Shown: in pieces, positions 3,188 through 53,367 of the stretch
How positions within the stretch are numbered: position 1 is the first letter of the stretch
Layout of the letters: each line of letters begins with the position of its first letter
NCBI GenBank assembly: GCA_949317995.1
Contig: OX439041.1
Location: 9,994,001 to 10,058,000, forward strand
Origin: Acholoe squamosa
Lineage: Eukaryota; Annelida; Polychaeta; Phyllodocida; Polynoidae
DNA length: 64,000 nt
Reading direction: 5' to 3'
Notes under the pieces: model-generated
Databases searched by the model: none
The model's input: only the letters and a program-made list of their open reading frames with translations
What the model was told of the DNA's origin: nothing
Program-made: the position numbers and the translations under genes

Positions 3188-3251
3188 GCAGCTCTCATCA
3201 GATAAAGAAATACTTTATCAGTGATAACATACAGATACTCTGAGAACCATC

Positions 3252-3912
3252 ATGGGCAGAAAGGATAAGAAGAAGGACCCTCCTCCACCTCCCCCACGGG
3301 GCGGGTCCTCTCTCCCCACCCCAAGGGCCCCTCCATCCTCAGCCCTCCCCTCCCCTGAGTACCCCTCCCCTGCTCACCCAACCCCTGAACACCCTTACCC
3401 CATCCTGCCCCCTCCCCCTCCACCACCCCCAAAACCAAACCAACACAACCAACACCGACAGGACCTGGAGGCCCAGGTGTTAAACCCACCTGTAGGACCT
3501 CCTAACACCACAGCTAACACCCCCTCCAGGAGGAGATGTGGGGCGTGCGTTAAGAGCGGGGTGTCCTTTCTGGTTTCCAGTGTTGGGCTGACATGTATCA
3601 TGGTTGGGTATACTGTCTTTGGAGGCTTCATTTTCATGAAACTGGAGGCCCCGAATGAACAAATCCTCAAGAATGATGTACAGCGTAGCAGGCGCTGGCA
3701 TGTTGAAATGCTATGGAACCTGACCTATGACCTTAATATCCTGTACCAGGATAATTGGACTCGCATTGCGGATGAGATTATGAATAATTACACCCGAGAA
3801 GTTTTCTACGCTACTAAGAACAAGGGTTGGGATGGCAAAGATGGAGACTCGGAACTGCAGTGGACTTTTGCTGGGGCGCTGCTGTATTCAATCACCGTGG
3901 TGACTACAATAG
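3252..3912 (+). CDS. Two-pore-domain potassium (K2P/TWK-type) channel, first coding exon, partial
   Basis: This exon encodes about 220 residues of a plasma-membrane background K+ channel. Seen directly: a basic start (MGRKDKKK), a long proline-rich cytosolic N-terminus (residues about 9-62), a first membrane helix (about 105-130) ending in the K2P-typical G-x-F-x-x-x-E pattern (G124 to E132), and an extracellular cap loop with three N-glycosylation sequons (N156, N168, N179). A pore helix follows and ends in TTIG, the first half of the TTIGYG selectivity filter. The ORF then runs into AG|GTAAGA, splitting the filter glycine codon in phase 1; an intron at this place is common in K2P genes. The start codon has a good context (accatcATGg). 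M2, the second pore and M3-M4 must lie on later exons, which I could not find in this window. The subtype is not assigned, and the proline-rich N-terminus is unusual for the family. Confidence 0.88.
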
Positions 3913-3918
3913 GTAAGA
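3913..3918 (+). other. Splice donor (GTAAGA)
   Basis: The AG|GTAAGA match at the end of TTIG is near consensus. The reading frame continues only about 25 codons with non-K2P sequence (KRIFIFLDF...) before a stop, as expected for read-through into an intron. No matching acceptor followed by a tyrosine-glycine filter exon was recognised downstream. Confidence 0.8.
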
Positions 3919-4917
3919 GAATCTTTATTTTTCTAGATTTTCAACAATCATATACACCTGCATTGTCCACGATGTTAATTATATATTAAATGTCTCAAAT
4001 GACCCATGCAAAGGTAAAATGAAATCCGTTTTTTGTGATAATGAAAAGAGACATCCATTACAGATTTTCTTTCAGAATATATGAATCAAAGCGAGTTATG
4101 GCAAAATTTATGTGCAGGAAATGGTTACAACAAAACTGTTCATAATGAGGACGGACAGTGTGTATAAAGGGTACGACCCAATCAATACCCGTGTTTTTTT
4201 AGTCACAAATATAAAAAAATAGAATAGAGACATATAGATAGAGGTTTATAGGGTGCTCTCATGATACCCATTGATTGCACAGTGGTAGAGCAAGGCCATA
4301 GGCTCTTGGCCACTCCTGCCATCTTCCAATGTAATCATAGCTATCTGTTCAGAAATCTGCGATGAAAAGTAGACAATTATTCCATAGTTTCCACCCATTT
4401 TTGAAAACGACAAGTAATTTAGATTTTATGTGAATGTCTGGTTTTTCAATATCTGCTGCTCTGCCATGCGAATAAGCAAATACAGCAAGCAAACCTTGCA
4501 AATTCATAATTTCACCTCAATTTTTAATTCCCATGAACAAATATTTCTTACAAGAGGATGCTTAATCTGAATGAAATCATTTAAACAAACATGGCTGTAG
4601 AAAGCTTTTCTATAATTAGTTACATTTCGCTCAGTTCTGGATTTTGCAACTGAGTAAGCATAGGTTAAAGGCACCCTGAGTCGGACAGATACCTAAAGTC
4701 GGACACAACCGTAAACAAATCTGTTTCATGGTCAACCGTTGATGCAACACCCCAATTCAATCAGTATACGTGTATCTGCCTTCTAGAAACCATGTCTAGA
4801 TCAGCCAAACAGACAACACAGCACCACATGTGTAAAAATGAAGATCTTGCTATACTTTGGATAATAACTAGAATTCTATTGAATTATGTTACATCCCTTT
4901 GAGCAGAAGTCAAATAA
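3919..4917. other. Presumed K2P intron 1, no other feature seen
   Basis: AT-rich sequence with no ORF of note and no recognised repeat. If the channel gene continues on the plus strand, this and perhaps all of the rest of the window is intronic. Confidence 0.4.
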
Positions 4918-15717: not shown

Positions 15718-15784
15718 ATGCACCAATGACGTGCTGGCGAGTTTTCCATTGGTGCATTATGCCGACCAACTCCGTAACCTCTGC
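15718..15784. repeat. GATGCA-palindrome lead-in to satellite
   Basis: A short truncated palindromic unit (ATGCACCAATGACGTGCTGGCGAG, then TTGGTGCATTATGCCGACC) sits directly before the 31-bp array, suggesting the satellite grew out of the CATGATGCA end of this repeat family. Confidence 0.5.
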
Positions 15785-16150
15785 ATGATGCATTCATGCA
15801 TCCTGATGTATCTGAATGATGCATTAATGCCTCCCGATGCATCAGTATGATGCATTCATGCATCCTGATGCATCTGAATGATGCATTAATGCCTCCTGAT
15901 GCATCAGTATATTGCATTCATGCATCCCGATGCATCTGAATGATGTATTAATGCATCCCGTTGCATCTGTATGATGCATTAATGCATCCCGATGCATCTG
16001 TATGATGCATTAATGCATCCCGATGCATCTGTATGATGCATTAATGCATCCTGATGCATCTGTAAGATGCATTAATGCATCCCGATGCATCTGTATGATG
16101 CATTCATGCATCCCGATGCATCTGTATGATGCATTAATGCATCCTGCATC
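15785..16150. repeat. 31-bp satellite, ~12 units
   Basis: The unit consensus is ATGATGCATTAATGCAT followed by CCCGATGCATCTGT. Unit starts at 15785, 15816, 15847 and so on to 16126 are exactly 31 bases apart. Within each unit ATGCATTAATGCAT and GATGCATC are perfect palindromes. Later units are more alike than early ones, suggesting recent homogenisation at the right side. The open frames across it are low-complexity and not genes. It is not a CRISPR: there are no unique spacers. Confidence 0.92.
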
Positions 16151-16442
16151 AGCAGTTCTTGAAAGATGAAATTGTTTGAAATAAGTCCACATTTTAATTC
16201 AATAATGATGTTCAATGGAGGTTCATTTTCTCTGATTATATATCCTCTGTTACTTGATCACTGTTTTATCATCACCAAGGCATTCAATTGGAAATATCAG
16301 AAGTATTGACTTGATTAGAATTCACCTTGAAACTAAATAAGGGCCGTGATGTCTGACAAAGTGCAAGCATTTATAGCCTTCCTAAGAAAATAATTATATT
16401 ATTAAATGAAAACATCTATGCCTCCAAGTTGAAATTAATGCA

Positions 16443-16640
16443 GACAGCCTGTTCCCGCAGCATTGGTGGGTGCTGGTTTTGATTGAGATTGAGACAAGCA
16501 TTTCAAAGATAAAAAATACATTGGCACAGGAACGGTACTCTTTAAAGGGACCAAATAATAAATGAAAGAAGATACGAGTGATCTGATGTGAGACTGCAAT
16601 GTCGTTTTGGTCAAGTAAATCAATGCACTTTTATATGAGC
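16443..16640 (+). repeat. Unit U fragment (diverged)
   Basis: GACAGCCTGTTCCCGCAGCA and the following GGTTTTGATTGAGATTGAG match the GACAGCCCATTTCCAC... module of unit U found seven more times downstream. A further U-like module precedes the satellite at about 15575-15700, so the satellite appears to interrupt an old U copy. Confidence 0.5.
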
Positions 16641-17801: not shown

Positions 17802-17974
17802 GTTTATCTATCATGGTGACCCTACAGGGTTATCCCATCTCTGGAGAGTCTGCATGATGCAGCAATGAAAAGCTGCACTTAATTGGTGCATCATACAAAC
17901 TGATGGACATGTATTAAGCTATTAATGTATTGATAACCTAGGACGAGGTGAGGTTTGCTGCACGCTCAGTCTAT

Positions 17975-18175
17975 ACTATATCACAAGCTGTATGGTTTAG
18001 CGGTTATGGGGCTCGTCCTCGGCCAGTGCGGCTGGTGTTCGATCCTTGGTACAGTTGTGTTATGACATACTTATTAACACGTTCCATATACTACCAAAGA
18101 TGTCTTAGAAAAAATTATAAACTCTCAGAGTGCAGTTAAACCCGATAACTGAATGGGTTTATGACCATCCATATA
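17975..18175 (+). mobile_element. tRNA-derived SINE, tandem copy 1
   Basis: The head contains a box A-like TGGTTTAGCGGTTATGG (about 17993) and a box B-like GGTGTTCGATCC (18034-18045), the internal RNA polymerase III promoter arrangement of a tRNA. The tail is AT-rich and repeats in the next copy. Period to copy 2 is about 201 bases. It is not an intact tRNA gene. Confidence 0.7.
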
Positions 18176-18371
18176 TCTATATCACAAGCTGTATGGTTTA
18201 GCGGTTACGGTGCTCGTCCTCGGCCAGTGCGGCTGGAGTTTGATCCTTGGTACAGTCGGGTTATGAAATACTTATTAACAGATTCCATATACTACCAAAG
18301 ATGTCTTAGAAAAAATTATAAACTCTCAGAGTGCAGTTAAACCTCGATAACTGAATTGGGTTATGACAAAA
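18176..18371 (+). mobile_element. tRNA-derived SINE, tandem copy 2
   Basis: A direct second copy of 17975-18175 with few changes, including T to C in TTATGG and GTTCGATCC to GTTTGATCC. Tandem SINE copies of this kind can arise by unequal exchange or template switching. Confidence 0.7.
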
Positions 18372-22354: not shown

Positions 22355-22755
22355 CATGGCATGGCGATTTATCACAACAGTCGCCAACATGATCTCACTC
22401 ACTGCGTGAGTATGTGCCACCCCTTGTCATCCCTCACAAAGCATGGTGACTTATCACCACCATCGCCAACATGGATCTAACTCACTACGTGAGTATGTGC
22501 CACTGCCTGTCAACTCTCAGTCAGAATGGCAACCTTTCACCTGCATTGCCACATGGCTCTCACTCACTGCGTGAGTGTGTATCACTCCTAGTTAATCTTC
22601 TCTCAAAATGGCGACTTATCACCACCATTGCCAACATTGGTCTCACTCAATATGTGAATTTGTGTCACTCCAAGTCAATGCTCTCTGAGGATTACATCAT
22701 CTGTCACTCACTCTCACTCACAGTGGCAACTTATCACCACCATTGCCAAAGTTGT
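22355..22755. repeat. ~85-bp degenerate tandem repeat, 5 units
   Basis: TGGCGACTTATCACCACC-like starts occur near 22362, 22446, 22527, 22609 and 22724. Each is followed by ATTGCCAACAT and CTCACTCACTGCGTGAGT, the latter an imperfect palindrome. A 95-codon ORF crosses it but simply translates the repeat. Confidence 0.75.
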
Positions 22756-23107: not shown

Positions 23108-23790
23108 TAATCATGAGCTTTTCATCTAACAAGGTGAGTGATCACCAGCGGCGCCATCACTGGTGAGTCTGAGTGATCACCACTCTCGCCATCCATGGTG
23201 AACCTGCGCTATGACGTGGTGCGCGTTTCATCTAGCGAGGTGAGTGATCAACCGCCTTGCCATCCCTGGTGAGTGTGCGTCATCACGATCCTCGCCAACC
23301 GTGGTGAACATGCGCTATGGCATGGTGTGCATTTCATCTAGCGAGGTGAGTGATCACTCGTGTCGCCATCCCTGGTGAGTGTGGGTGATCAAGATCCTCA
23401 CGAGGTACGCGTTTTATCTAGCGAGGTGACTGATCACAGTCCTTGCCATCCGTGGTGAATGTGCATTATGACGTGGTGTGCGTCTCATCTAGCGAAGTGA
23501 GTGATCACTCATGTCGCCATCCCTGGTGAGGATGAGTGATCACTCATGTCGCCATCCCTGGTGAGGATGAGTGATCACGATCCTCGTCATCCCTGGTGAA
23601 CATGTGCTATAACGAGGTGCGTGTTTCATCTAGCGAGGTGAGTGATCACCCATGTCGCCATCCCTGGTGAGTCTGAGTGATCACCATCCTCGCCATCTGA
23701 GGTGAGGCCATGTGATCACCACCATTGCTATTCCTGGTGATCTTGTGCTATAGCGACGTCGTGTTCCATCTAGCGACATGTGTGAGCCAC
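23108..23790. repeat. Degenerate satellite rich in GAGGTGAGTGATCA
   Basis: TTTCATCTAGCGAGGTGAGT recurs at about 23119, 23227, 23333, 23411, 23483, 23626 and 23765. In between, GTCGCCATCCCTGGTGAGTG sub-repeats recur about every 37-60 bases. Many units carry the perfect palindrome GTGATCAC. AG|GTGAGT is also a strong splice-donor consensus. It resembles the array at 22355-22755 in using CGCCA and TGAGTG words. No ORF. Confidence 0.8.
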
Positions 23791-28939: not shown

Positions 28940-29580
28940 GCCATCCAATTGAATTAGGAATCTAGTAAATTTCTGTCTCCCTTATCCAGGGTATTGGGTG
29001 AGGAAGGAAGGGATCTAGTCAGGTGGATGCCAATGCGTTTCAGGGTCAATTTTTGTCAGGACCAGCAGTGGCACCACTTGTCCAGAAGTGATAGGTAAAT
29101 ACATTGCGTCTACACTGAAATTGATGCCTAAAATTGTTTGGACCTTATCTGTAATTTGAACTGATGGATAGAAAGACCTCTTTTTTACTTAACCATAATC
29201 TGGTCAGACCTGTCTTGTCTGCTCTTTTGTAGTTGCCTTGACTAGGGGAATGTATCAAGCTTGAATAAATGAGAGATTTTCTAAATAAAATTCACCTTCC
29301 AATGGATTAATGGCACTTGTAGAAAAATGATTATGTGAACATGGAGACATTAATGACTTGAGGGTTAAATTAACAAAGACAGCCCATTTTCACTTGAGAC
29401 CAATGGTTTTGATTGAGTTGGAGAAAAGAAATGCTTGGTAGGACAAAAATACAATACGATGGGTCAGTAGGGAAAGTGCATTGACAGCCTTGCATGAGAG
29501 AAGAACCAGGACAAAGGACAATCTGCTGAGCCTTTTTTATTGAGGTTATGAAAAGCTCAATTATTTGAGAGTTATAAAAG
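28940..29580 (+). repeat. Unit U copy
   Basis: An ordered set of modules: AATTTCTGTCTCCCTTATCC, GGAAGGGATCTAGTCAGG, GAACTGATGGATAGAAAGAC, AAGCTTGAATAAATGA, GACAGCCCATTTTCACTT, TTGGAGAAAAGAAATGCTTG and TGCTGAGCCTTTTTTATTGA. The same order is found at 35085, 38990, 40900, 42880 and 51170, with differing internal losses. No coding. Confidence 0.75.
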
Positions 29581-31982: not shown

Positions 31983-32419
31983 TAAGGGAAGTGCAATGTA
32001 ACCAGTCTCCTCATTTGCATGTTTGAAATAATCAGTTAAAAGGTGCTGACGAGTCAATTACTGTATGCAAAGCTTTATGTTTTACCGAAAAATCTAAATA
32101 CCTATTAGAATATGTTAGTAATAAGGTGGATAGGGCTTGCAATATCCATGGATGATAATGCATAATTTCCAAAACCAGCATTGAACCAAAGGTCTTTCAG
32201 AAAGATGGCCATCTGTCTTCAGAATCCATGGTGTTGGTTGCAGGAAACACTTGAGTGATCTATGCAGGTAGGTCTTTTATAGTTATCCCCCTGACAGGGA
32301 AGGTCTTATGAAACGGACATGGCCAAAGCCTTTTATCAGTTTATATCCCCTTTTTCATGGAATTAAGATGTCAGGATTAGTAGCATAAGAAAATGACTAC
32401 AATAACTTGAAAACATCAA

Positions 32420-32720
32420 CATGGAGGTTAAATTAACACAGATAGCCCATTTCCTCTGACTGCAAGTGGTTCTGATTGAGATTGAAGAAAGAAACATGCG
32501 TTCTTGACAAGACAAAAACACAATGAAATGAGTTGGTGGAAGAAATGCATTGACATTGTTGAACGAGAAGGAAAAGGGACCAAAATGACACGGCTGTAAG
32601 ACACCTTTTTATTGAGGAAATTTGAGCCTTTACAATGAAGCTAGCTTAGTTCACGTTTTTGGATGTCTCCAAGGAGTCCTGTGCCTCATATGAATGGATT
32701 TATGGTTTAAAGAGATGGCA
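32420..32720 (+). repeat. Unit U fragment
   Basis: GATAGCCCATTTCCTCTGAC, TTCTGATTGAGATTGAAG, TTTTTATTGAGGAAATTTGA and TCCAAGGAGTCCTGTG match the 3' modules of unit U. Confidence 0.65.
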
Positions 32721-35084: not shown

Positions 35085-35740
35085 GTGCATCTGATTGAAT
35101 TATGAATTGAGTAAATCTCTGTCCCCTGAATCCAGGGTTTTGGCAGAGGAAGGGATTTGTTCAAGTGGATACCAATGCGTTCTTAGGTCAATTTTTGCCG
35201 TCTTTTCACCACACCAGCAGTGAAACTACTTGGCCTGAAACCATTGGGACACTGAAATTGATGCCTTAAATTGTATGGATCTTATCTCTTATTTGAACTG
35301 ATGTATGGAAAGACCCCTTTTTGACCTGACCATAGTTTGGTCTGAGTAGTCATGTCTGGTCTTTTATAGTTCTTCTTGACAAGGAGAATCTACCAAGCTT
35401 GAATAAATGAAGAAATATCATAACTGGAATTTACTTGTGAATAGCCTTAAGATGTTAAAGATGTGAGAATTAGTACCACTTCTAAGAACTTGATTAAGTG
35501 AACAGGGAAACATGAATGACTTCAGGGTTTAATTAACACTGACGGCCCATTTCCACTGGATACCAATGGTTTTGATTGAGTTGGAGAAAAGAAATGCTTG
35601 GTAGGACAAAAACACAATAAAAAAAGGCTAGTAGAGGAAGTGCAATGATACTGTTGAATGAGAAAGTAACCACGGCAAAGGACAATCTGCCGAGCCTTTT
35701 TTATTGAGGTTATAAAGGTGCAATTATTTGAGAATTATTT
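35085..35740 (+). repeat. Unit U copy
   Basis: AAATCTCTGTCCCCTGAATC, GAAGGGATTTGTTCAAGTGG, AAGCTTGAATAAATGA, GACGGCCCATTTCCACTGGA and GAGCCTTTTTTATTGAGG follow the unit U order. It begins right after the nested element above. Confidence 0.75.
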
Positions 35741-38989: not shown

Positions 38990-39680
38990 CTTTTTGGGTA
39001 CTTCCAGGCCTAAACCCATATCAAAAAACATTCACCTCTTATCCACCGAAATGGATGCCTTAATTTGTACTGATCTTATTTTCAATTTGAGATGATGAAT
39101 GGAAAGACTCTTTTTGCATGACAATAATACGGCAAGGGTAGATTTGTCTGGTCTTTTATAGTTATCTTAACCCCCTGACAGAAGAGATCCTACCAAAATC
39201 AAATGAACAAAGGCTTCTCTATCAATTCAAATTCATTTTTTAATGGAATTAAGATGCGTAAGATGTCAGGATCAATATTATAAAAATATCAACTACAGTG
39301 ATAACATGAATGTGAAGGTTAAAATTAACACACACACACAGTAACACAGACAGCCCATTTCCTCTGTCAACCAGAGGTTTTGATTGAGTTGGAGGAAAGA
39401 ACAATGCATCCTTGGCAAGATTAAGGAAACAATTAAACAGGTTGGTGGAGGAAATGCGTTAACACCGTTAGACGAGAAAGGAAAGTGAACAAAAATGATC
39501 TTCTGTAAAAAGGGCTGAGTCTTTTTTATTGAGGACATATAAACAGGTTTATCTGAGCCTTGACAATATAGCTAGCTTAGATCACATTCTTGGACTCCTC
39601 CAAGAGGTTCTGTGTCTTGTAAGATTGGATGCATCCATGGTCTAAAGAGGATAGAACACTATACATTTTATGAGATTGAT
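38990..39680 (+). repeat. Unit U copy
   Basis: GAGATGATGAATGGAAAGAC, ACAGAAGAGATCCTACCAAA, GACAGCCCATTTCCTCTGTC, TTGGAGGAAAGAACAATGC, CTTTTTTATTGAGGACATAT and CTCCAAGAGGTTCTGTGTC. It includes a (CA)n run near 39330. Confidence 0.7.
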
Positions 39681-40039: not shown

Positions 40040-40860
40040 TTGGGAGGCCCTGTTCTTATTTCATGACTACTCACACACTATATCTGTACATGTCACTTCA
40101 CCAATCCAATCTGACCTGTCCTAAGTCTCTACAGTACACCCCAGAGACTTGGGCACGGCTTAACCCATGAAGAACTCTTTCCTCTCTGAGTTTGATTAAA
40201 ATGTCCTTCATTCGAAACACGACACCAATGTCGTAATTTCTGATATCGGGAGAAGGATCAATTTTCAGCTACAGTCGATGGGGTTAGGCAGGAACTTAGC
40301 TTCATGTCATGGCCACTAGGAAATGGTTCAGCTGACATAAAGATGCTGTGACATGACTTCCGGTCTACCCAGAAGCAGATGGAGGTAATGTGAAAGTTGC
40401 ACTGCCAATATCTTCTACTCCAGAGACATATTTACTTTTTTGGCAAAAAGATTGGCAAAGCATAATATGATTGGGTGATGTATAGGATTGTATACAGTAG
40501 AATAGTACAAAAATGAGTAAGATTTGGCCCCAGTTCAGGTCTAGCACAAACTGTACAGGTCTAGCATAAACTCAAGGTGCGCTATATATACAAGCTATCC
40601 TTTCCCCAACTTCCTAATATGGTGTGGAGACAAACCCATAAGTGGGCAAAAGCTCTGGGGCTAGTCTAGAAACTTACTCTTCTTTTTTTTCTTTTTGGGA
40701 AACATGTAAAACATAAGAAATTAAGGAGTGGGTACAAGCGTTTGTTTAAATTTGGAATTTCCTTTAGATCAATTGCTGACTGTATATCAAAAGTCGTATG
40801 ATATGTGTTAGTACATGTGAATTAAACTAAATAAAATACCTCCTTAATAAAGCGGAAAAG
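40040..40860 (+). repeat. Duplicated block W, copy 1
   Basis: From ACTACTCACACACTATATCT through AACACGACACCAATGTCGTA and GTCATGGCCACTAGG to TTCCTTTAGATCAATTGCTG this matches 45175-45920; the central part also matches 56070-56470. No ORF is supported. Confidence 0.8.
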
Positions 40861-40879
40861 GTTCATCACTCATACAAAC

Positions 40880-41480
40880 TATGGTCTGCCTGCCACATCC
40901 AGCACTGAACAAATGGTTCATTAGGAAATGATAACTGTCCATTTAGATTAAGCACTGAAGAAATCTGTCTCCAAAATCAAGGATGGAATTGATCTAAAGG
41001 TGATCTGCTTTAACTGTTTTAACAAAACAGAAAAGCATTAAATTATTTCAGATTTGCCTTTACACTGAACCTTTAGTTAAATTATGAAAGGATTGATAGC
41101 ATTCATAAGAAATTAATTACAGTAATTTAAAAACATGAACGACATAAAGGTTAAATCAAAACAGACAGCCCATTTCCACTTGTGGCCAATGGTTTGAGTT
41201 GGAGGAAAGAAACATGCATGGTTAGAGGGATAAACAGAATGAAATAGGCTGGTGAAGGAAATGCATTTGCTCGAGAAAGGAAATGGAACAAAAGGATAAA
41301 ATCTGCTTGCTGAGCGTTTTTATTAAGGTAAATGAAGACGCGTTTATTTGTTCCTTGACAATGACGCCAGCATAGTCCACATTCTAAATTATATCAAAGG
41401 AGTCCTGTGTTTCTTAAGAGCTGTTTTGGTCTAAAGAGGATACCATATGATGAATAAGGCGCTATACAGTGAAATGGCAT
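40880..41480 (+). repeat. Unit U copy
   Basis: CATTAGGAAATGATAACTGT, AATCTGTCTCCAAAATCAAG, GACAGCCCATTTCCACTTGT and CAAAGGAGTCCTGTGTTTCT; closely related to 51160-51790. Confidence 0.75.
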
Positions 41481-41539
41481 TTTCAGTCTGCCTGTCTTGT
41501 CTGGATACAATTTTATATTCAGACTCTTTTTAAGTTATA

Positions 41540-42880: not shown

Positions 42881-43740
42881 TCTTATCTGTAGTTTTTAGT
42901 GACTTATTGAATGGGTCTTTTTGTATGATCTGGTCAGAGCACTTTTGTCTGGTCTTCATCCCTTTTGCAAGAAGATTATGTCAACAATGAACCCAATGAT
43001 TTATTTCAGATTCGCCTTTATGAAATAAACCAGAGATATCTTTAGTTTACAAATGAAAGGATTAATAGCATTCATAGGAGAATAATTTGAGAACATGAAC
43101 AACATGAAGGGTAAATTAATGCAGACAGCCCATTTCCACATGTGGCCAATGGTTTCGAGTTTCGAGAAGAAACATGCAAGATCGGTCATTATAAAAACGC
43201 AATAAAATGGGTTGGTGGAGGAAATGCATTGACACTGTTAAACGAGAAAGGAAATGGAACAAAAAAAAATCTGCTGTAAGATGGTCAGTCGTGTTTGGCT
43301 AAGTAAATGAAGACATTTATTTGAGCCTTGTCCACTAAGCAAGTTTAGTTCACGTTCTCAGACATCTCCAAGGAGTCCTGTGTCGCGGAAAAATTGATAT
43401 GGTCTCAAGAATATATCCAATGACAAATATGATACTATAGTGTTAGATGGCATTTCCAGAGGGTCTGACTGAATATAGCTCTTAACATGTTATAAACAGT
43501 TAAAAGAGAAACATAATCTCTAATCAAGCTGAAAGAAATATTACATTCCAGTTGGCCATGTCTCTTGGTACACACGGCATTGCAAGGGACCTGATATGAG
43601 TTATGGGAGTATTTTTTAGTATCTTTATTTATTGGCTTAACCTTTGGGGATTATATATGAAACTATAATTTGTTAGTGCTTGGTTCAGCTTGAGGACATG
43701 TTGAGTCTCACTATTAACCATTGATATTTCTGTGCATCTT
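42880..43740 (+). repeat. Unit U copy with 3' extension
   Basis: GACAGCCCATTTCCACATGT, CTCCAAGGAGTCCTGTGTCG, TTACATTCCAGTTGGCCATG and GGCTTGAGGACA-like sequence match 51380-52133. At 43722-43728 it reads CTATTAACCATTG, the uninterrupted counterpart of the R-element insertion at 52134. Confidence 0.7.
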
Positions 43741-44645: not shown

Positions 44646-45175
44646 TGTGCACAAAGTGCTGTCCCTGCAGCCTGCACTAAACGCCTATATTGCTATCATT
44701 ACTCTTTGATGTGTAATTACCTAATTAGCCACAGAAAGACCCTGATGTGTTAGACTATCATACATGTCAATATTACAGTGTCGTAATAATGTGGGCTACA
44801 CTTTTATATTCCTCCCCATGATGAGAATGCAGAGGCCCACTCTATCACATTGAAATTAGAATGGTAGCTAACAAATGACACACTCATGTCTCTAACCTGT
44901 GGGAAAAAATTGAGTTGGTTAGAAGGTGATTTCTGCTGCATTATTCTACTTTATGCCGTCATTCTACCAACCCTTTGAGACCGATTGCCCTCATACTTTA
45001 AAAACATTGACTTTCACATGTATACAGCCTCAAAAGGGATACTGTAAAATCCTGGTGATAAGCTAACCTTCTTTTGCTATTTTCAGTCAAAAACTGCTTC
45101 TAGTTTATTGCAAAATTCTACCCCACACCTATGAGCATAATAGCTTAAAAAGAAACTAGTGTAAAATAACAACTA
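44646..45175 (+). repeat. ~1-kb duplication with 55515-56450, left part
   Basis: GTGCACAAAGTGCTGTCCCT, GCATATTG-type sequence, GAGAATGCAGAGGCCCACTC and TCAAAAGGGATACTGTAAAA are repeated in order at 55518-55945. No coding support. Confidence 0.8.
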
Positions 45176-45920
45176 TTTTATTTCAATACTACTCACACAC
45201 TAAATCTGTAGGTATGACTTGACAAATCCAATCTGACCTGTCCTAAGTCTCTATAATGCACCACCAGAGATTTGGACAAGGCTTTACCCATGAACTCTTT
45301 CCTCTCTGAGTTTGATTAAAACGTCTTTCGATTGAAACATGACACCAATGTCATGATTTCTGATATTGGTAGTCGGATCGATTTTCATCTGCAGTCCATG
45401 GGCTTTGGCAGGAGCAGACCTTCTTGTCATGGCCACTAGGGGGTCTAGTGTTGGGGCCCCAAATGGCATCTAGATCATTTAGACATGTAAATGGGTCATT
45501 CTGAATGTGTCCCCCTATTGAGCACTGCTCGTACTATTTCTGTACATGAGTCACACAAAATGGTTCAGCTGACATGAAGATGTTTTGACACGACTTCCGA
45601 TCTGTCCAGAAGCAGACGTAGGTAATGTGAAAGGTGCACTGCCAATATCTTCTATCCCAGAGACATGTTTATTTTTGGGCAAAAAAGGCTAGCGCTAGTC
45701 TAGGAACTTAATGCCTTGATTTTCTTTTTGGGAAAAATGTAAAAACATTAGAAATTGAAGAGTGTGTATTCAGTAGGACTTAAGAGGACTTGAGAGATTG
45801 CCATGCAATTATATTGCAACAAATTCACTTTTAAATATGCAGTATGCACTTACCCTGCAACTAAAAAGTGTTTGCTCAATTTTGGATTTCCATTAGATCA
45901 ATTTCTGACTGATCAGGAAT
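45175..45920 (+). repeat. Duplicated block W, copy 2
   Basis: ACTCACACACTAAATCTGTA, AACATGACACCAATGTCATG, GTCATGGCCACTAGGGGG and TTCCATTAGATCAATTTCTG parallel 40040-40770. The similarity stops near 45916, just before the retroelement. Confidence 0.8.
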
Positions 45921-46071
45921 CCTCTGATAATTTTCTTCATGTATATTCAACATATTTTCCTCTATATATTCAAAAAATGTTGCATGTAAAGTCCACATGT
46001 GTATAGAATTCATTCTAATCTTAAGCCTTTAAAACAAGTCTGATGTAAAGGTTGAATCATTCTATAGATCT

Positions 46072-47052
46072 ATGCAGTATGAAACAACATTGAAAACTTT
46101 TTTTTTGCCAAAGGTTCTTAAGTGTCTGAAGAATCTTAAGGGTCAGAATGACTGGAGAAACGTCTCAGTAGGGGATGAGCTCAATGAAACTGAAAGACGA
46201 CAGTTCCTGGACTTACGAGCGATTTATTTCCTCGCCAAGAACAAAGGTATGGATGTACGCTTACGTCAAAGAGCGGTGATTATCAATAAGAAGGTCTACC
46301 CGCACCATCAATTGATCAATCTTCCATTTCCAGAAGTCAACCTGGAACTAGCAACCACTGCCACCACACCTGACGGAATCATGTTCAGGTCCCATCACAA
46401 TAGACTTTCTAATCTGTACCCTTGCAAAATAATCGATGAGTACGACAGAGAATTCTCATCTGTTGAACAAGCCTGCCAGTTCAAAAAGGCAGAGGTGTGT
46501 GGCACAAAAAACCATAGAGACAAAATTATGAGTCTAAGTGATCCATATGAAATAATGGCTGAAGGGAAAAAGTTGAAACAATCAACAGAATGGGCTCGTG
46601 ATGCAGAGAACCAGTTGTACAAGTTCAATATGATTAAATTCTCCTCACCAGATCTCAAGCAGTTATTGCTTGACACACAGGACGCCCACCTATATGAGGC
46701 TTCTTTCCACCCTCTTTGGGGGGCTGGTCTACACCTGGGTCAACATGATATGTGCACGCAGGACAATATAAAAGGTGACAATCTACATGGCAGAATCCTG
46801 GAGCGTATCAGAACACAGCTAAAAAGGGACACAAGTGATAATGATGACGAGCAAGATGACGAGCAAGATGACGAGGAAGGTGATGAGGAGCAAGAAGGCG
46901 ATGATAAAGCTAAAGCTGACGAGAAAGCTGAGAATGATGAACATAAGGATGATGAAGCGAAAAAAGATCTAGCTGAGGGAAGTGAGCCAACTGAAACTGA
47001 AGCTGGTGCAACCCCTAACCCCAACAAACCGGATGCACCCGCCTCTACATAG
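46072..47052 (+). CDS. NADAR-domain protein, probably the ORF1 of a LINE
   Basis: A 326-residue ORF (stop in frame at 46030). Residues about 18-75 (e.g. LKGQNDWRNVSV, then FLDLRAIYFLAKNKGMDVRL) resemble the C-terminal tail of non-LTR retrotransposon ORF1 proteins. Residues about 103-250 carry NADAR-family marks: LSNLYPCK (112-119), SSVEQACQFKKAE (129-141), W174, KF (189-190), LYEASFHPLWGAGL (207-220) and GDNLHGRILERIR (235-247). NADAR enzymes, such as bacterial YbiA, cleave N-glycosidic bonds of ADP-ribose-type or riboflavin-pathway metabolites. E132, E209 and W216 are kept, but the acidic residue usual just before WG appears replaced by H213, so activity is uncertain. The last ~70 residues are an acidic D/E/K-rich tail. 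It lies 427 bases upstream of the EN/RT ORF on the same strand. A stand-alone host gene is the alternative. Confidence 0.75.
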   Translation: MQYETTLKTFFLPKVLKCLKNLKGQNDWRNVSVGDELNETERRQFLDLRAIYFLAKNKGMDVRLRQRAVIINKKVYPHHQLINLPFPEVNLELATTATTPDGIMFRSHHNRLSNLYPCKIIDEYDREFSSVEQACQFKKAEVCGTKNHRDKIMSLSDPYEIMAEGKKLKQSTEWARDAENQLYKFNMIKFSSPDLKQLLLDTQDAHLYEASFHPLWGAGLHLGQHDMCTQDNIKGDNLHGRILERIRTQLKRDTSDNDDEQDDEQDDEEGDEEQEGDDKAKADEKAENDEHKDDEAKKDLAEGSEPTETEAGATPNPNKPDAPAST

Positions 47053-47479
47053 AGCCAGAATGAACTTTCTTCTTTAATTCTTTACTCCTACATTTATATT
47101 TGAAAAATACCTTGTTTAGATTGAATTTGCTCTATGCATAATTGTCTAAATTTGTGTTTTAAATATTGATATGTGGTTGTACATTACCGGTAATACTGTA
47201 TAATCAATTATTGTAATACTGTATAATACGAAAAGTTTATCATGTCTTATATTGTAGCCCCTATTGTTATTGTCGTTATTATTAATATTTTCTACGGGGC
47301 TTGGTATATCTTTGGTCATGCCTGAGTAATATATTCATGGGCGGTCAGAAGAACCGAGGTCCATGTAGGGAGGGATGTTGGGGTTTTGGGCATTTTCTTT
47401 TTCTATTTTTGACATGTCAAACTGGTATGGGTTCAGACCACTCAACAACTCCAGTCCCATTAATTTTCAATACCTATAA
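47053..47479 (+). other. Inter-ORF region of the retroelement
   Basis: AT-rich spacer between the NADAR ORF and the endonuclease ORF, with a direct repeat TAATACTGTATAAT (about 47202 and 47216). No boundary mark such as a poly-A tract or terminal repeat separates the two ORFs, which supports one element. Confidence 0.5.
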
Positions 47480-50274
47480 ATGAATAATTTTCCTCAACTT
47501 AAGAGAGGTTTTTCTCTGGTACACTTAAATGCTAGATCAGTTCGTAACAAAATGACTGCCATTAAACATGAAATGTCAAACTTGAATATTGATATTGTAC
47601 TTCTATCTGAAACTTGGTTGAATGACACTGACATGGATTTTTTATATACCTTTCCCAGGTACAACATGTATAGACTAGACAGAATTAGTATTTTCCATGG
47701 TGGAGGTTTGTGCGCTCATGTTGATGAACAGGTTTCATGCTCTATAATTAGGTTTAAAGAATTGAATAGATCTAATCCAGATATTGAAATTCAATGGCTT
47801 TTTTCTGTTAAGGGTACAATGAAAAAGTGTATAATCTGTAATATTTATAGACCCCCTAGTGGTTCACTTGTGAATTTTTGTGATACAGTTAAAGCGCTTT
47901 TTCTACAAATTGATGATCTAGATTCTTACAACATATTTGTATTAGGTGATTTTAATGTTGATGTCCTAGTAAAGAAAAATCAACTGTATGAAGCTTTCTC
48001 CGACTTTAATCTAATTCAACTGGTCAAAACTGTTACTACCACTACAGGTTCCAATAAATGTATTGATCTTATTTTTACTAATTGTGTAAATATTACATCA
48101 TCCGGACCTTTGAACATTCATTTATCAGATCATTTACCGGTTCATGTAATCAAGGCAACTGCCTCTTGTAAATCTGGCACACGACAATTCACGGGTAGGT
48201 CATATCGTAATTATAATCAAAAGGATTATTTAAATTCCCTTGATGCGTGTAATTAGACTTTCTTTGATCAAAGTGAGAACCCTGATGAGTGCTGGGATAT
48301 AATGGAAAATATGTTTAAAAGGATGTTGGATGTTATGTGTCCAGTAAAATGTTTTAGAGTGAAGGACCATCTCAAACCTTGGATTACCAATTATTTGATA
48401 GAAAGAATTACTGATAAAAATAATGCACTTTTACATGCCAGGAATAGCAAGTCTATTTTAGATTGGCGCCAGGCCAAAGATTTAAGAAATGCTGTTAATA
48501 ATGAAATTGAAGTTGCCAAACATAATTATTTTAATAATGTGTGTGATGAACATATCAATGACTCTAAAAGGTTTTGGGCGATTATGAAGGAAATTGTTCC
48601 GTCAAAAAAGGGTGACTCAAAAGCTATAAACTTATTGGATAATGGCAATGTAATCCCTCCAGATGAGACTGCAACTTTTATAAATGATTTTTTCGCCAAT
48701 ATTGGGCCTACTCTAGCTGAAACACATAACACAGAATGGCGTTTTAATGGTATACGTAATGATGTAGACATTAATGATTTTGATTTCTCTGACGCTGAAA
48801 TTATTGAGGTGATAAAAAACATTGATGTATCGAAGTCTTCATCCATTGACTACTTACCAACTAACATTTTCAAGGCTGCAGTCTTGCATAACCCAGCAAG
48901 ATTTATTAGATTAATTAAACTCATCTTTAAAAAAAATAAAATACCAAAAAAATGGAAAATTGCCACAGTCACTCCTCTGCCAAAGGGGGGTGATCAAACC
49001 AACGTTTCTAATTTTAGGCCTATCAGCATCCTACCTGTGCCAGGGAAGATTTTGGAACGTTTGATGCATACTCATATTTCGAAATTCCTAGATGATCATG
49101 ATATTATTTCAAAAAATCAAGGTGGTTACTTAAAGGGTAAATCTACGCTCGATACAATTAGTATTTTGGTTGACGACATACTTGAAAATAGAAACAACAA
49201 GAATATTACTTTTGCTGCTTTTATTGATATAAAAAAGCATTCGATAGTGTAAATTATGATGTTTTATTACGAAAATTGGAAATGTACGAAATGTACGAAA
49301 ATTACCTGTCTATTCGACAACAGTGCACGGTCGCTAATAATATAAGATCTGGTCATGCACCATTGAGGTGTGGAGTGCCACAGGGTTCAATTTTGGGTCC
49401 TTTGTTCTTTTTACTATATATAAATGATTGTATAAATACCACGGACACACATAAAACCTTGCTTTATGCTGATGATTCAGTATTATATGTATCAGGTCCA
49501 AATTTGGAAATTTTGTCTCAACAATTGACACAAGCTCTAGCTATTTTTTATAACTGGTCATCTTACAATAAGTTAACAATTAATGAATCTAAAACAAAAA
49601 TTATGGTTTTTGCATCTTCCAAAAAACTGTCGAGATTACCAGGACCCAGGATTGAACTCAATGGAAAAATTCTACAGAATATTGTATCCTACAAATATTT
49701 AGGTGTCACTGTGGACCGTGTATTAAACTTTAATATGCATGTACGTAACATGTTACGGAACCTAGGTTATAAATTTTTTCTCCTATATAAAGTGAGGAAA
49801 TATATGTCCCCTAGAGTATTATTGAGAATATACAAATCCCACATTTTACCTGTAATTGACTACAGTGATGTTATATACAATAGTGCAAATGTGAATTTAT
49901 TGGATGAATTACAGCGATTCCAAAATAAGTGCCTTAAGACGTGTCTAAAAGTACATTTTCTAACACCTACTGAGGAAGTGCATAGAGATGCATCCTTGCC
50001 CATGTTAGTGAATCGCAGAAAATTCCATCTAAAGAATTTGGCATATAAAAGATCTAGAAAACCAGAATTTTGTAAAGTGCCAGCCAGACAGACTAGGCTT
50101 AATGATGCACCGGTGTTAATGTATGATATTATTAAATGCGCAGCTTATGAAAATTCACCTAAGGTTCTATGTGCCCAGACATGGAACAACTTGAGTGTTT
50201 TAGATAGAAACATAGAGTTATATGAAACTTTCAAACAAATGGGCAAGGACGAGTTGGAGAGATCTATCCCATAA
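47480..50274 (+). pseudogene. CR1/Jockey-type LINE ORF2 (endonuclease-reverse transcriptase), broken
   Basis: One long reading unit of about 930 codons with a stop just before the ATG. Part 1 (47480-48256) is an APE-type endonuclease: HLNARS, LLSETWL, NIYRPP, LGDFNVD and the final SDHLP are visible. It ends at an in-frame TAG (48254-48256) and the same frame continues (48302-49252) with the linker and the first RT motifs (NFRPISILP). A single-base loss in an A-run (49231-49236), seen because the next frame immediately reads AFDSVN, shifts the frame. Part 3 (49276-50274) has GVPQGSILGPLFF, YADD (49465-49476) and the thumb/C-terminal region. The segment between motif A and the PQG motif looks about a dozen residues short, suggesting a small in-frame deletion. 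Not functional as read; clade within CR1/Jockey not assigned. Confidence 0.92.
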
Positions 50275-50614
50275 TATTATCAATAGTTGTACCTGCCTTT
50301 TATTATGGCAGAATTGGCATACATTGGGTTTCTAACAATTATTTTGTTAAAATAAGCATAAAGATGTTAATTACTCTGTATACTATTGCCGCCGCTTATA
50401 TGTTTCTAATTATATAAAATGTTATTATATTGACGACCTGTATGTTCTGCAGGAATGTTATCAAGTGCATACCCGATGCAACAGTTTACTGAAAGGGTAT
50501 AGCACTTTACCTTTACCTTAGGAATTACATTGTCGCTGTCAATTTATGTTACGCTACATGTCAAACTTGTATTTTCACCTAAGAAATAAAGGTTTCTTCA
50601 GTTTCAAAAAAAAA
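50275..50614 (+). other. LINE 3' untranslated region and tail
   Basis: It ends AAGAAATAAAGGTTTCTTCA followed by a nine-A run. AATAAA lies about 20 bases before the tail. No target duplication could be paired with a 5' end. Confidence 0.65.
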
Positions 50615-51150
50615 TAATCCTCCATACAAAAACCTAATTTCTGAATCTATATCCACATTACCATTGTAAAGAGCAGACTCTAGGGCTTACAATGAGTAAA
50701 TGTCCAGGTTGATTGAAAAAGCTAATGAAGATTTAGGTGATGGTTTACATTAAAAAATAATTCAGAAATTTACGAAACATTTGTCCTCAACGTCCGGTAA
50801 ATTTATTCATTTTTCCCTCAATTAATGTTTATTATATCTACAAAGTAGCATTCATATTCATTATACTTACTGTTCAACCTTGCATGTTTGCAGGAGAATT
50901 AAAATCTATTTATAATTAGCTACTCAAAAATTGCTCAATAGATTTCAGACCTGAAAAATGATAAGAATTCTCATCCATTGAAATATCATATCAAAAAGTA
51001 AGAAATCCTTCCAAAATGCATTAATTCCTATTTTGAGGCCAAGAATTGATGTATTTTCTACCTAATTTTGGCATAACTAAAGTTTAAAATCCCCATGCAC
51101 AAGGTGAACTCCTTACTCTGGCTTTTTTTAAATGCACTATGGAAAATAGG
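50615..51150. other. No recognised feature
   Basis: AT-rich flank of the LINE without ORF or repeat match. Confidence 0.35.
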
Positions 51151-51159
51151 GTATATCAA

Positions 51160-52133
51160 AAGTCATCAGGAAATGATAACCGTCCATTTAGATTATGCAC
51201 TGAGGAAATCTCCAAAATCAAGGATGGAAGTGATCTATTTAGGTACCAACCGGTGTGTTACATGGTCAGATTTAACTGCCTTTTGTCAAATGGCAGGCAG
51301 CTCTTGGCATGAACCAAGAGAACACAGTACTTTTGTCTCATGAATAAGTTCTTTATCTGCTTTACCTGTTTTAACTAAACAGAAAAGCATTGACTTATTT
51401 CGGATTTGCCTTTAAACTGAACCTTCAGTTTGATTATGAAAGGATTGATATCATTCATACTAAAATAATCACAATAACTTAAAAACATGAGCGACATAAA
51501 GGTTAAATTAAAACAGACAGACCATTTCCACTTGTGGCCAGTGGTTTTGAGTTGGAGAAAAGAAACATGCATGCTTGGAGGGATAAAATGAAATGGGCTG
51601 GTGAAGGAAATGAATTGACACTGTTGATCGAGAAAGGAAATGGACCAAAAATAATCTGCTGTAAGATGGCTGAGCCTTTTCATTAAGGTTAATGAAGATG
51701 CGTTTATTTGAGCCTTGCCCATGAGGCCAGCATTGTGCACATTCTAAGACACCTTTAAGGAGTCCTGTTTCTCAAAAGGACTTATATCATCTTCAGAGGA
51801 TACTCAATGACAAAAAGTTCACCATAAACTTAAATGGCGTTTCCACTGGGTGTGTCTGAATATATAGCTTTTAAAGCATCATGAACCATTAAAAGAGAAA
51901 TAAAATCCTATCAAATGCAAAATCATAGAGAGACTCTATTTAAGCAGTGGTTAACTGATAAAAAATACAATGAATTGCAAAATCATGAAGATGTCGAGAC
52001 TCTTTTCAAGCTGAAGGAAAGATTACATTCCAGTTGGTCATGTCTCTTGGTACACATGGCATTGATTATATATGAAACTGTATTTTACTAAGTGTTTTGT
52101 TCGGCTTGAGGACAAGCTGAGCCTCAACATTAA
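51160..52133 (+). repeat. Unit U copy
   Basis: CATCAGGAAATGATAACCGT, AAAATCAAGGATGGAAGTGA, GACAGACCATTTCCACTTGT and TTACATTCCAGTTGGTCATG parallel 40905-41430 and 42990-43730. Together with block W at 45175-45920 it forms one sequence that is contiguous at 40040-41480, so about 5 kb including the LINE lies between its halves. Confidence 0.75.
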
Positions 52134-53367
52134 CCAGGAGGTTAATTCAAAAGATCCTGGGATCACAACCTCAACAATCTTAGGAATTATTTTGCCTTAT
52201 CCTATTAAGCGGGCTATTCACTCTTTTGATCAGGAGTGTTCCCTGTAACTGCTCTTGTACACTGCAAAAATGGTGTTTAGATTTTAAACATGTTTAGGTC
52301 TAAACATGTTTAAAACCTAAACATATAGGTCAGTTAGGTGTCTCATTGACTACACATTTAGAAAATGAACACTTTTATTCTAACTACATAAACGTTTATG
52401 CTAAACATGTTTAGATGTTTAGAGTTGAAACAGTTGAATAATAGGTGTTTAGATTTAAACATCAATATGTTTAGATACTTGGATGGTGAATCCACACCAG
52501 GTAGCAGCACTACCTTTGAATGGACTATCTGCACACAGTTATAATCAATTGTTGTGACAAATGTCCCCAAATCCCATGTTTATCATGGTTTCATTTCATA
52601 GAATGTCATGTGAATAGAAAAGGCAATAGAAAATTGACTAGATTCACCTTATGCCACCATCATTAGCATAAAATAATCAATAAGCTCCATGACTGACACC
52701 TACTTGATGTTATTCTGGAATAGATAAGGCAATGTCCTTTCTGCCAAGCTGTTGTACTTTCTCAAGTCTCTCATTCTGATGCAGTGTGTAATACATGTAC
52801 ACATATATAGCTGTGGCTGACATCTTTGGAGACTTTGACAAGTAAATACATGCTGATGTCCCCCCAGTAAATGAGGAAACAAACAATATACCTCTTTTTT
52901 TTAATGCATACATGTCTGCAAAGCTTAACTTTCCATCAAATTATTTAAACATCTAAACACAAAAATTCATAAACACCTAAACACAAAAAATAAAAGATAT
53001 CTAAACACATAGTTTTAACCTAGACACCTACACTTCTAAACACTTGAGCTAAGCACATTGTTTGGCTAAACATGTTTAGGAAATTAATGTGATTAAAAAA
53101 CGTTGCAAGAATATGTTTAAAATTGTGTTTAGGATCTAAACACCATTTTTGCAGTATACTAAGGTTAAACCACTATGCAATTATTTCACTAAGATCGTAG
53201 TGATCTTAGCACTGGAAAAAGAATAGTGGAGTGATCTCAGGACTTGCTACTCCTGACAGGCCTGCAACCACAGCATTAGATAGGGTAGACTGGCCAGGTC
53301 TCATGATAGGTGCCTACACTAAGATCGCAGGGGTAGAAATCCCAGGATCTTTTGAATTAACCTCCAG
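52134..53367 (+). mobile_element. R-element (MITE, ~337 bp) interrupted by CACTG element, TAA flanks
   Basis: The left end CCAGGAGGTTAATTCAAAAG and the right end CTTTTGAATTAACCTCCAG are inverted. TAA lies on both sides (52131-52133, 53368-53370). The unit U copy at 43722-43728 has the unoccupied site. The copy at 25106-25370 shows the interior without the nested insert. Non-coding, probably PIF/Harbinger-like from the TWA target. Confidence 0.8.
52260..53156. mobile_element. 897-bp CACTG-terminated element nested in R-element
   Basis: The ends are CACTGCAAAAATGGTGTTTA and TAAACACCATTTTTGCAGTA (last base mismatched), flanked by TA at 52258-52259 and 53157-53158. The empty site, CTTGTACTCAGG, is seen inverted at about 25310-25320. 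The outer 200 bases on each side repeat AAACATGTTTAG and CTAAACAC words in both orientations. The middle (52530-52920) is unrelated; its minus-strand ORFs (52700-52913) are unrecognised. The CACTG termini suggest a CACTA/CMC-type source, by inference. Confidence 0.85.

Follow-up and report, generated by a model that had tools for sequence, protein, structure and literature searches.

A NADAR-domain open reading frame as the likely ORF1 of an inactive LINE copy in the annelid Acholoe squamosa

We examined a 64,000-nucleotide (nt) stretch of the genome of the polynoid annelid Acholoe squamosa (GenBank assembly GCA_949317995.1, contig OX439041.1, positions 9,994,001 to 10,058,000, forward strand), which is referred to here as the window. 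The subject is an inactive copy of a long interspersed nuclear element (LINE), roughly 4.7 kb long and possibly close to complete, in which an open reading frame (ORF) encoding a NADAR domain is likely to be the first ORF (ORF1) of the element. Five ORFs of at least 200 amino acids were found in the window. Four of these belong to this locus, namely the NADAR ORF (46072-47052) and three ORFs with endonuclease (EN) or reverse transcriptase (RT) domains (47480-48256, 48302-49252, and 49276-50274), all on the plus strand, and the fifth and shortest lies at 3252-3989 (245 amino acids).

The NADAR ORF is open and encodes 326 amino acids. Residues 108-251 (46393-46824, plus strand) matched the Pfam family NADAR (PF08719; E 1.2e-21) with a score of 78.1 bits (cut-off 35.1), which places the protein in the NADAR superfamily, and no other Pfam family exceeded its cut-off across the whole ORF. 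A match to NCBIfam TIGR02464 (E 2.2e-18) fell under that profile's own cut-off, and the matches to PHROGs phrog_1017 (E 6.5e-29) and PADLOC PDC-M42C (E 5.1e-15) only restate the NADAR similarity. The ORF was modelled with AlphaFold2 (AF2) using nine relatives. Block means of the predicted local distance difference test (pLDDT) were above 85 over most of residues 101-260, with 77 for residues 221-230; they ranged from 77 to 97 within the NADAR stretch and were below 65 for residues 1-90. Foldseek searches with this model recovered 8bau (E 1.3e-8) and 2b3w (E 2.9e-6), corresponding to the YbiA fold, and nothing besides these two at E 0.001 or better. It was noted that identity to the sampled microbial NADARs was 22-31%. 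The original prediction, made from the letters of this DNA, had placed a NADAR domain in this ORF, and both the profile search and the fold matches bear this out.

The fold and most conserved residues are shared with the YbiA/NADAR hydrolases, including E. coli YbiA (2b3w), the P. nicotianae enzyme (8bau, a structure that contains ADP-ribose), and phage and bacterial NADARs. With E88 and K95 of the E. coli C7 NADAR taken as the reference for the pocket Glu and Lys, the corresponding E132 and K139, seven residues apart, were found to be present in the annelid protein and invariant across all rows of our alignments A1-A3; they pair by motif and spacing with E43 and K50 of the P. nicotianae NADAR. 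The pocket also retains W174 and E209, and among the relatives the Trp at 174 is missing in only one row of A3. The annelid protein differs from these hydrolases in its basic N-terminus and acidic tail, in the LINE ORF2 next to it, and in an Asp-to-His replacement at position 213.

The NADAR domain is flanked within the ORF by an N-terminal part of net basic charge (residues 1-95; 46072-46356) and by an acidic, low-complexity tail (46843-47049) that is partly built from 12-nt tandem units (46843-46887). The last 69 residues contain 30 D/E and 7 K/R, so the acidic C-terminus described earlier was recovered. When the N-terminus was modelled alone with AF2 (103 residues, without relatives), the resulting low-confidence model (pLDDT 54) consisted of two helices, three strands, and a further helix. 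A PDB fold search with this model returned nothing significant. Human L1 ORF1p (2yko_A) ranked 17 of 134 in that search (E 3.9, TMq 0.34); it is the match that the earlier claim of an ORF1p-like N-terminal tail would predict, yet at this score it amounts to a lead only.

Downstream, an APE-type endonuclease is followed by an RT on the same strand, the arrangement of a LINE, divided in this copy into three pieces. The first part of ORF2 (47480-48256) carries the endonuclease (Exo_endo_phos_2, E 3.6e-8; Exo_endo_phos, E 5.5e-7) and is closed by an in-frame stop at 48254-48256, which separates it from the next piece in the same frame. The second part (48257-49252) comprises a linker and the first RT motifs (RVT_1, E 1.1e-7 on 48302-49249) and ends at a frame change near 49240, just past which ORF2 is presumably shortened relative to what we take to be the usual RT form. 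The third part (49228-50274) holds the remaining RT and the C-terminus (RVT_1, E 4.1e-16 on 49276-50271). In searches of the Protein Data Bank (PDB), the first RT piece matched LINE-1 ORF2p chains (best E 6.6e-7), and the second RT piece and the endonuclease gave no LINE match. The third part resembled group II intron RTs weakly (E 0.046) and matched NCBIfam TIGR04416 (E 4.8e-12) at 45.7 bits where the cut-off is 300; this does not help to place the clade. Because of the in-frame stop and the frame change, ORF2 is dead in this copy, with ORF1 open. The EN/RT reading frame announced by the original prediction thus stands as to its domains and strand, but not as a single open frame. We dropped any inference of selection from the open ORF1 beside the broken ORF2 as too weak from one copy.

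The 3' untranslated region (UTR; 50275-50614, plus strand) contains a poly(A) signal (AATAAA, 50585-50590) and ends in the poly(A) expected of a LINE, nine As at 50606-50614, the last of which coincides with the end point first proposed for the element. No long terminal repeats (LTRs) were found, the longest direct repeat reported in 45000-51500 being 23 nt. The spacer between ORF1 and ORF2 (47053-47479) is 427 nt long, as had been stated together with the shared strand. An element boundary was sought inside it and none was found: the longest A run is 5 and no AATAAA is present, in keeping with the earlier claim of an unbroken junction. A 17-nt near-repeat between the spacer (47412-47428) and the 3' UTR (50556-50572) was within chance (22 of 200 shuffles reached it) and was set aside. 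Upstream, 45952-46071 is probably the 5' UTR of the LINE, or else flanking DNA. The alignment to the paralogous unit described below is good to about 45911 and weak up to 45951, the G+C content is 0.28 compared to 0.43 at the ORF1 start, and an in-frame stop lies 13 codons 5' of the ORF1 ATG.

A paralogous unit without the LINE was identified at 40056-41497 on the plus strand, collinear by blastn with 45178-45951 and 51163-51857. On the left, the segments 45178-45440, 45558-45685, 45676-45768, and 45866-45951 align in order to 40056-40827; on the right, 51163-51237 and 51355-51857 align in order to 40918-41497. Between these flanks the empty unit holds 90 nt (40828-40917) and the filled unit 5211 nt (45952-51162), with both the NADAR ORF and the EN/RT ORFs inside. 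This block is the sole difference above 1 kb between the two units, which differ besides by several indels of about 100-200 nt. Since the NADAR and EN/RT ORFs are jointly absent from the paralog, they most likely arrived as one unit; a deletion in the paralog is a possible but less simple alternative. The exact edges of the insertion are given as ranges. The alignment to the paralog is good to about 45911 and weak over 45912-45951, so the left edge is placed within 45911-46071, and a 14-mer found both in the right flank (51151-51164) and at 40782-40795 of the paralog conflicts with an alignment running through 45951. It was also noted that a dispersed repeat family occurs at no fewer than eight places in the window (16301-16640, 29301-29569, 32384-32703, 35410-35732, 39342-39617, 41003-41497, 42994-43720, and 51355-52136), with about 58-80% identity of the other members to the copy at 51.4-52.1 kb.

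NADAR domains have been described in retroelements before. One sentence of a published survey (PMC12477816) reports NADAR-like ORF1s in several Tx1 LINE families of Crassostrea gigas, which resemble the annelid case in being LINE ORF1s with a YbiA-family NADAR domain. The same source reports NADAR at the Pol N-terminus of Ectocarpus Gypsy elements, which likewise are retroelements with a NADAR but are LTR elements with the domain within Pol. No other reports of NADAR in LINEs were among the literature matches listed on NADAR and transposable elements. Taking together the joint absence from the paralog, the uninterrupted spacer, the poly(A) end, and the oyster Tx1 precedent, we regard it as likely that the NADAR ORF is the LINE's own ORF1. 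The locus is best explained as a LINE in which an ORF2 with APE endonuclease and RT follows an ORF1 built from a basic N-terminal region, a NADAR domain, and an acidic tail. For this copy, the original prediction of a NADAR domain carried as a LINE ORF1 product is supported by the paralog, the spacer, and the oyster elements.

Several observations weigh against this assignment. Residues 1-96 of ORF1 matched no Pfam family at E up to 10, Transposase_22 included, leaving no detectable ORF1 homology. Target-site duplication candidates were judged against 133 control windows of equal size, and none rose clearly above chance or was accepted. A 7-mer (AATCCTC) directly 3' of the poly(A) was equalled by 12 controls, and an 8-mer (ATCAGGAA) at the far right edge by 45. 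The least chance-like was a 9-mer (AATTTCTGA) slightly further 3', equalled by 6 controls and not abutting the poly(A). The 536 nt after the poly(A) (50615-51150) are A+T-rich, missing from the paralog, and unexplained; they may be ancient flanking DNA that the paralog has lost, or a further insertion. The element was found as a single copy, with no second copy detected by blastn and tblastn of the window. Viral contigs, where a copy would hardly be expected, were also searched with limited patterns, and no relatives of the NADAR ORF or the two RT pieces were found (the endonuclease was not searched). G+C content is 0.42-0.47 in the NADAR ORF compared to 0.32-0.34 in ORF2, and third-position G+C is 0.44-0.49 (acidic tail 0.32) compared to 0.24-0.32. 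Finally, this copy has H213 at the Asp position of the D-x-x-W-G motif, where Asp occupies the position in 11 of 11 other rows of A2 and 9 of 9 of A3.

The replacement at position 213 bears on what the domain does. In the nematode C. elegans, SNA-3 is likewise an animal NADAR protein, tied to RNA processing, but it is a host gene with three NADAR domains and is nematode-specific according to the paper that describes it (PMC9303266). In that work an Asp and a Trp, three residues apart, were mutated in the second NADAR domain as counterparts of key residues in YbiA, and the Asp corresponding to position 213 was one of three residues whose joint mutation impaired SNA-3 function (PMC9303266). The loss of this Asp would suit a LINE ORF1 module that binds RNA or ADP-ribose-bearing partners without catalysis, a reading that we consider somewhat unlikely, since E132, K139, W174, and E209 are all retained and the state of the family is not readable from one decayed copy. 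H213 may be a family feature or decay.

The layout of ORF2 appears to differ from that of the L1-like elements, among which the Tx1 LINEs are counted. A short C-terminus without a CCHC motif marks the Jockey superfamily. ORF2 here spans about 930 codons compared to 1275 residues in human L1 ORF2p, being about 345 residues shorter, and the matched RT stretch begins near codon 387 compared to 396 in L1. A C-x2-C-x4-H-x4-C motif was looked for in ORF2 part 3 and none was found. As ORF2 ends far short of L1 ORF2p, its layout does not look L1-like, and the element may belong to a LINE group other than Tx1. The C. gigas LINEs differ in being classed as Tx1 in their published description (PMC12477816). 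Jockey-superfamily LINEs likewise have two ORFs, with APE and RT, and interchangeable ORF1 domains, and a survey of 448 elements of this superfamily documents ORF1 shuffling and names RRM, CCHC, PHD, CTD, coiled coil or zipper, zinc finger, and esterase domains (PMC4120745). The words NADAR, YbiA, and DUF1768 are absent from the main text of that survey.

This mismatch with the published NADAR LINEs, together with the unlike composition of the two ORFs, would also be expected of a chance hybrid, in which a NADAR ORF from a different element, such as a Tx1-type LINE, had a 5'-truncated LINE inserted behind it, a route to hybrids proposed by Metcalfe and Casane (PMC4120745). We judge such a hybrid improbable. 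A truncated LINE inserted behind the ORF finds little echo in the spacer, where a single A-rich 7-mer is the only match of at least 7 nt to 50610-50640, around the poly(A) end. The stretch 3' of the poly(A) resembles the LINE no more than shuffled sequence does (113 of 200 shuffles reached the score) and the NADAR ORF not clearly more (16 of 200), so nothing left over from an outer element is visible. Less probable still is a host NADAR gene or retrogene that adjoins an unrelated LINE by chance: NADAR proteins are known from many invertebrate phyla, SNA-3 is such a host gene (PMC9303266), the NADAR ORF is open beside a broken ORF2, and its third-position G+C outside the tail resembles that of a putative host exon (0.52; 3528-3950) more closely than that of ORF2, but the ORF is missing from the paralogous unit along with the LINE, no poly(A) separates it from the EN/RT ORFs, and LINE ORF1s with NADAR are already known (PMC12477816). 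The gap in composition is as compatible with a recent acquisition or a hybrid origin as with a host retrogene.

The remainder of the window contains features of other kinds. An open stretch with a proline-rich start (3228-3986) gave a weak Pfam match to Ion_trans_2 (E 0.0065, below cut-off) and, by inspection of the letters, resembles a putative two-pore potassium channel. A minisatellite of 11.8 copies of a 31-bp unit (88% matches) occupies 15780-16144, and two tandem 201-bp units at 17972-18367 resemble tRNA-type internal promoter boxes by eye, with no tRNA called by ARAGORN. Further tandem arrays were noted at 22361-22686 (83-bp unit) and at 23120-23776, the latter consisting of overlapping arrays (units of 35-141 bp) in which TGAGTGATCACC-like words are frequent. 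Scans of the 64-kb window with Rfam and ARAGORN returned no matches.

If the NADAR ORF is the LINE's ORF1, the question is what the domain would do for the element. NADARs take ADP-ribose off guanosine in DNA and RNA. The ORF1 protein would bind the LINE RNA within a ribonucleoprotein, and its NADAR domain would hydrolyse base-linked ADP-ribose, most likely on guanosine, or a related N-glycosidic adduct. The substrate would sit on the LINE RNA or the nascent complementary DNA (cDNA), where removing the adduct would keep the template readable; because LINE RNA serves as a template, an enzyme that clears adducts would benefit the element. By analogy with known NADARs, we put this enzymatic step forward tentatively, as something that could well prove otherwise. 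The original prediction had further suggested that the retroelement counters a host ADP-ribosylation defence, which is chemically plausible by the same analogy, with one conserved pocket position altered in this copy. According to a review of pierisin, six edible clams have an activity that ADP-ribosylates DNA at N2-guanine, and CARP-1 was cloned from one of these clams. In its full form, the proposal would be that a non-Tx1 LINE lineage gained a NADAR ORF1 as a counter-defence, clearing N2-guanine ADP-ribose placed on its RNA or cDNA by pierisin/CARP-1-like ADP-ribosyltransferases of the host or by poly(ADP-ribose) polymerases (PARPs), and we regard this as a long shot.

NADAR ORF1s in LINEs have thus been reported before, from the Tx1 elements of C. 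gigas, and the annelid element would be a variant of this known kind with an apparently different ORF2 layout. A NADAR ORF1 joined to an ORF2 that is not L1-like would point to retroelements having captured or exchanged the domain more than once, as the Ectocarpus Gypsy elements also illustrate. A 2024 paper describes as unclear what NADARs do physiologically in eukaryotes, including animals, and the element described here makes one question testable, namely whether animal retrotransposons must undo base-linked ADP-ribosylation of RNA or DNA.

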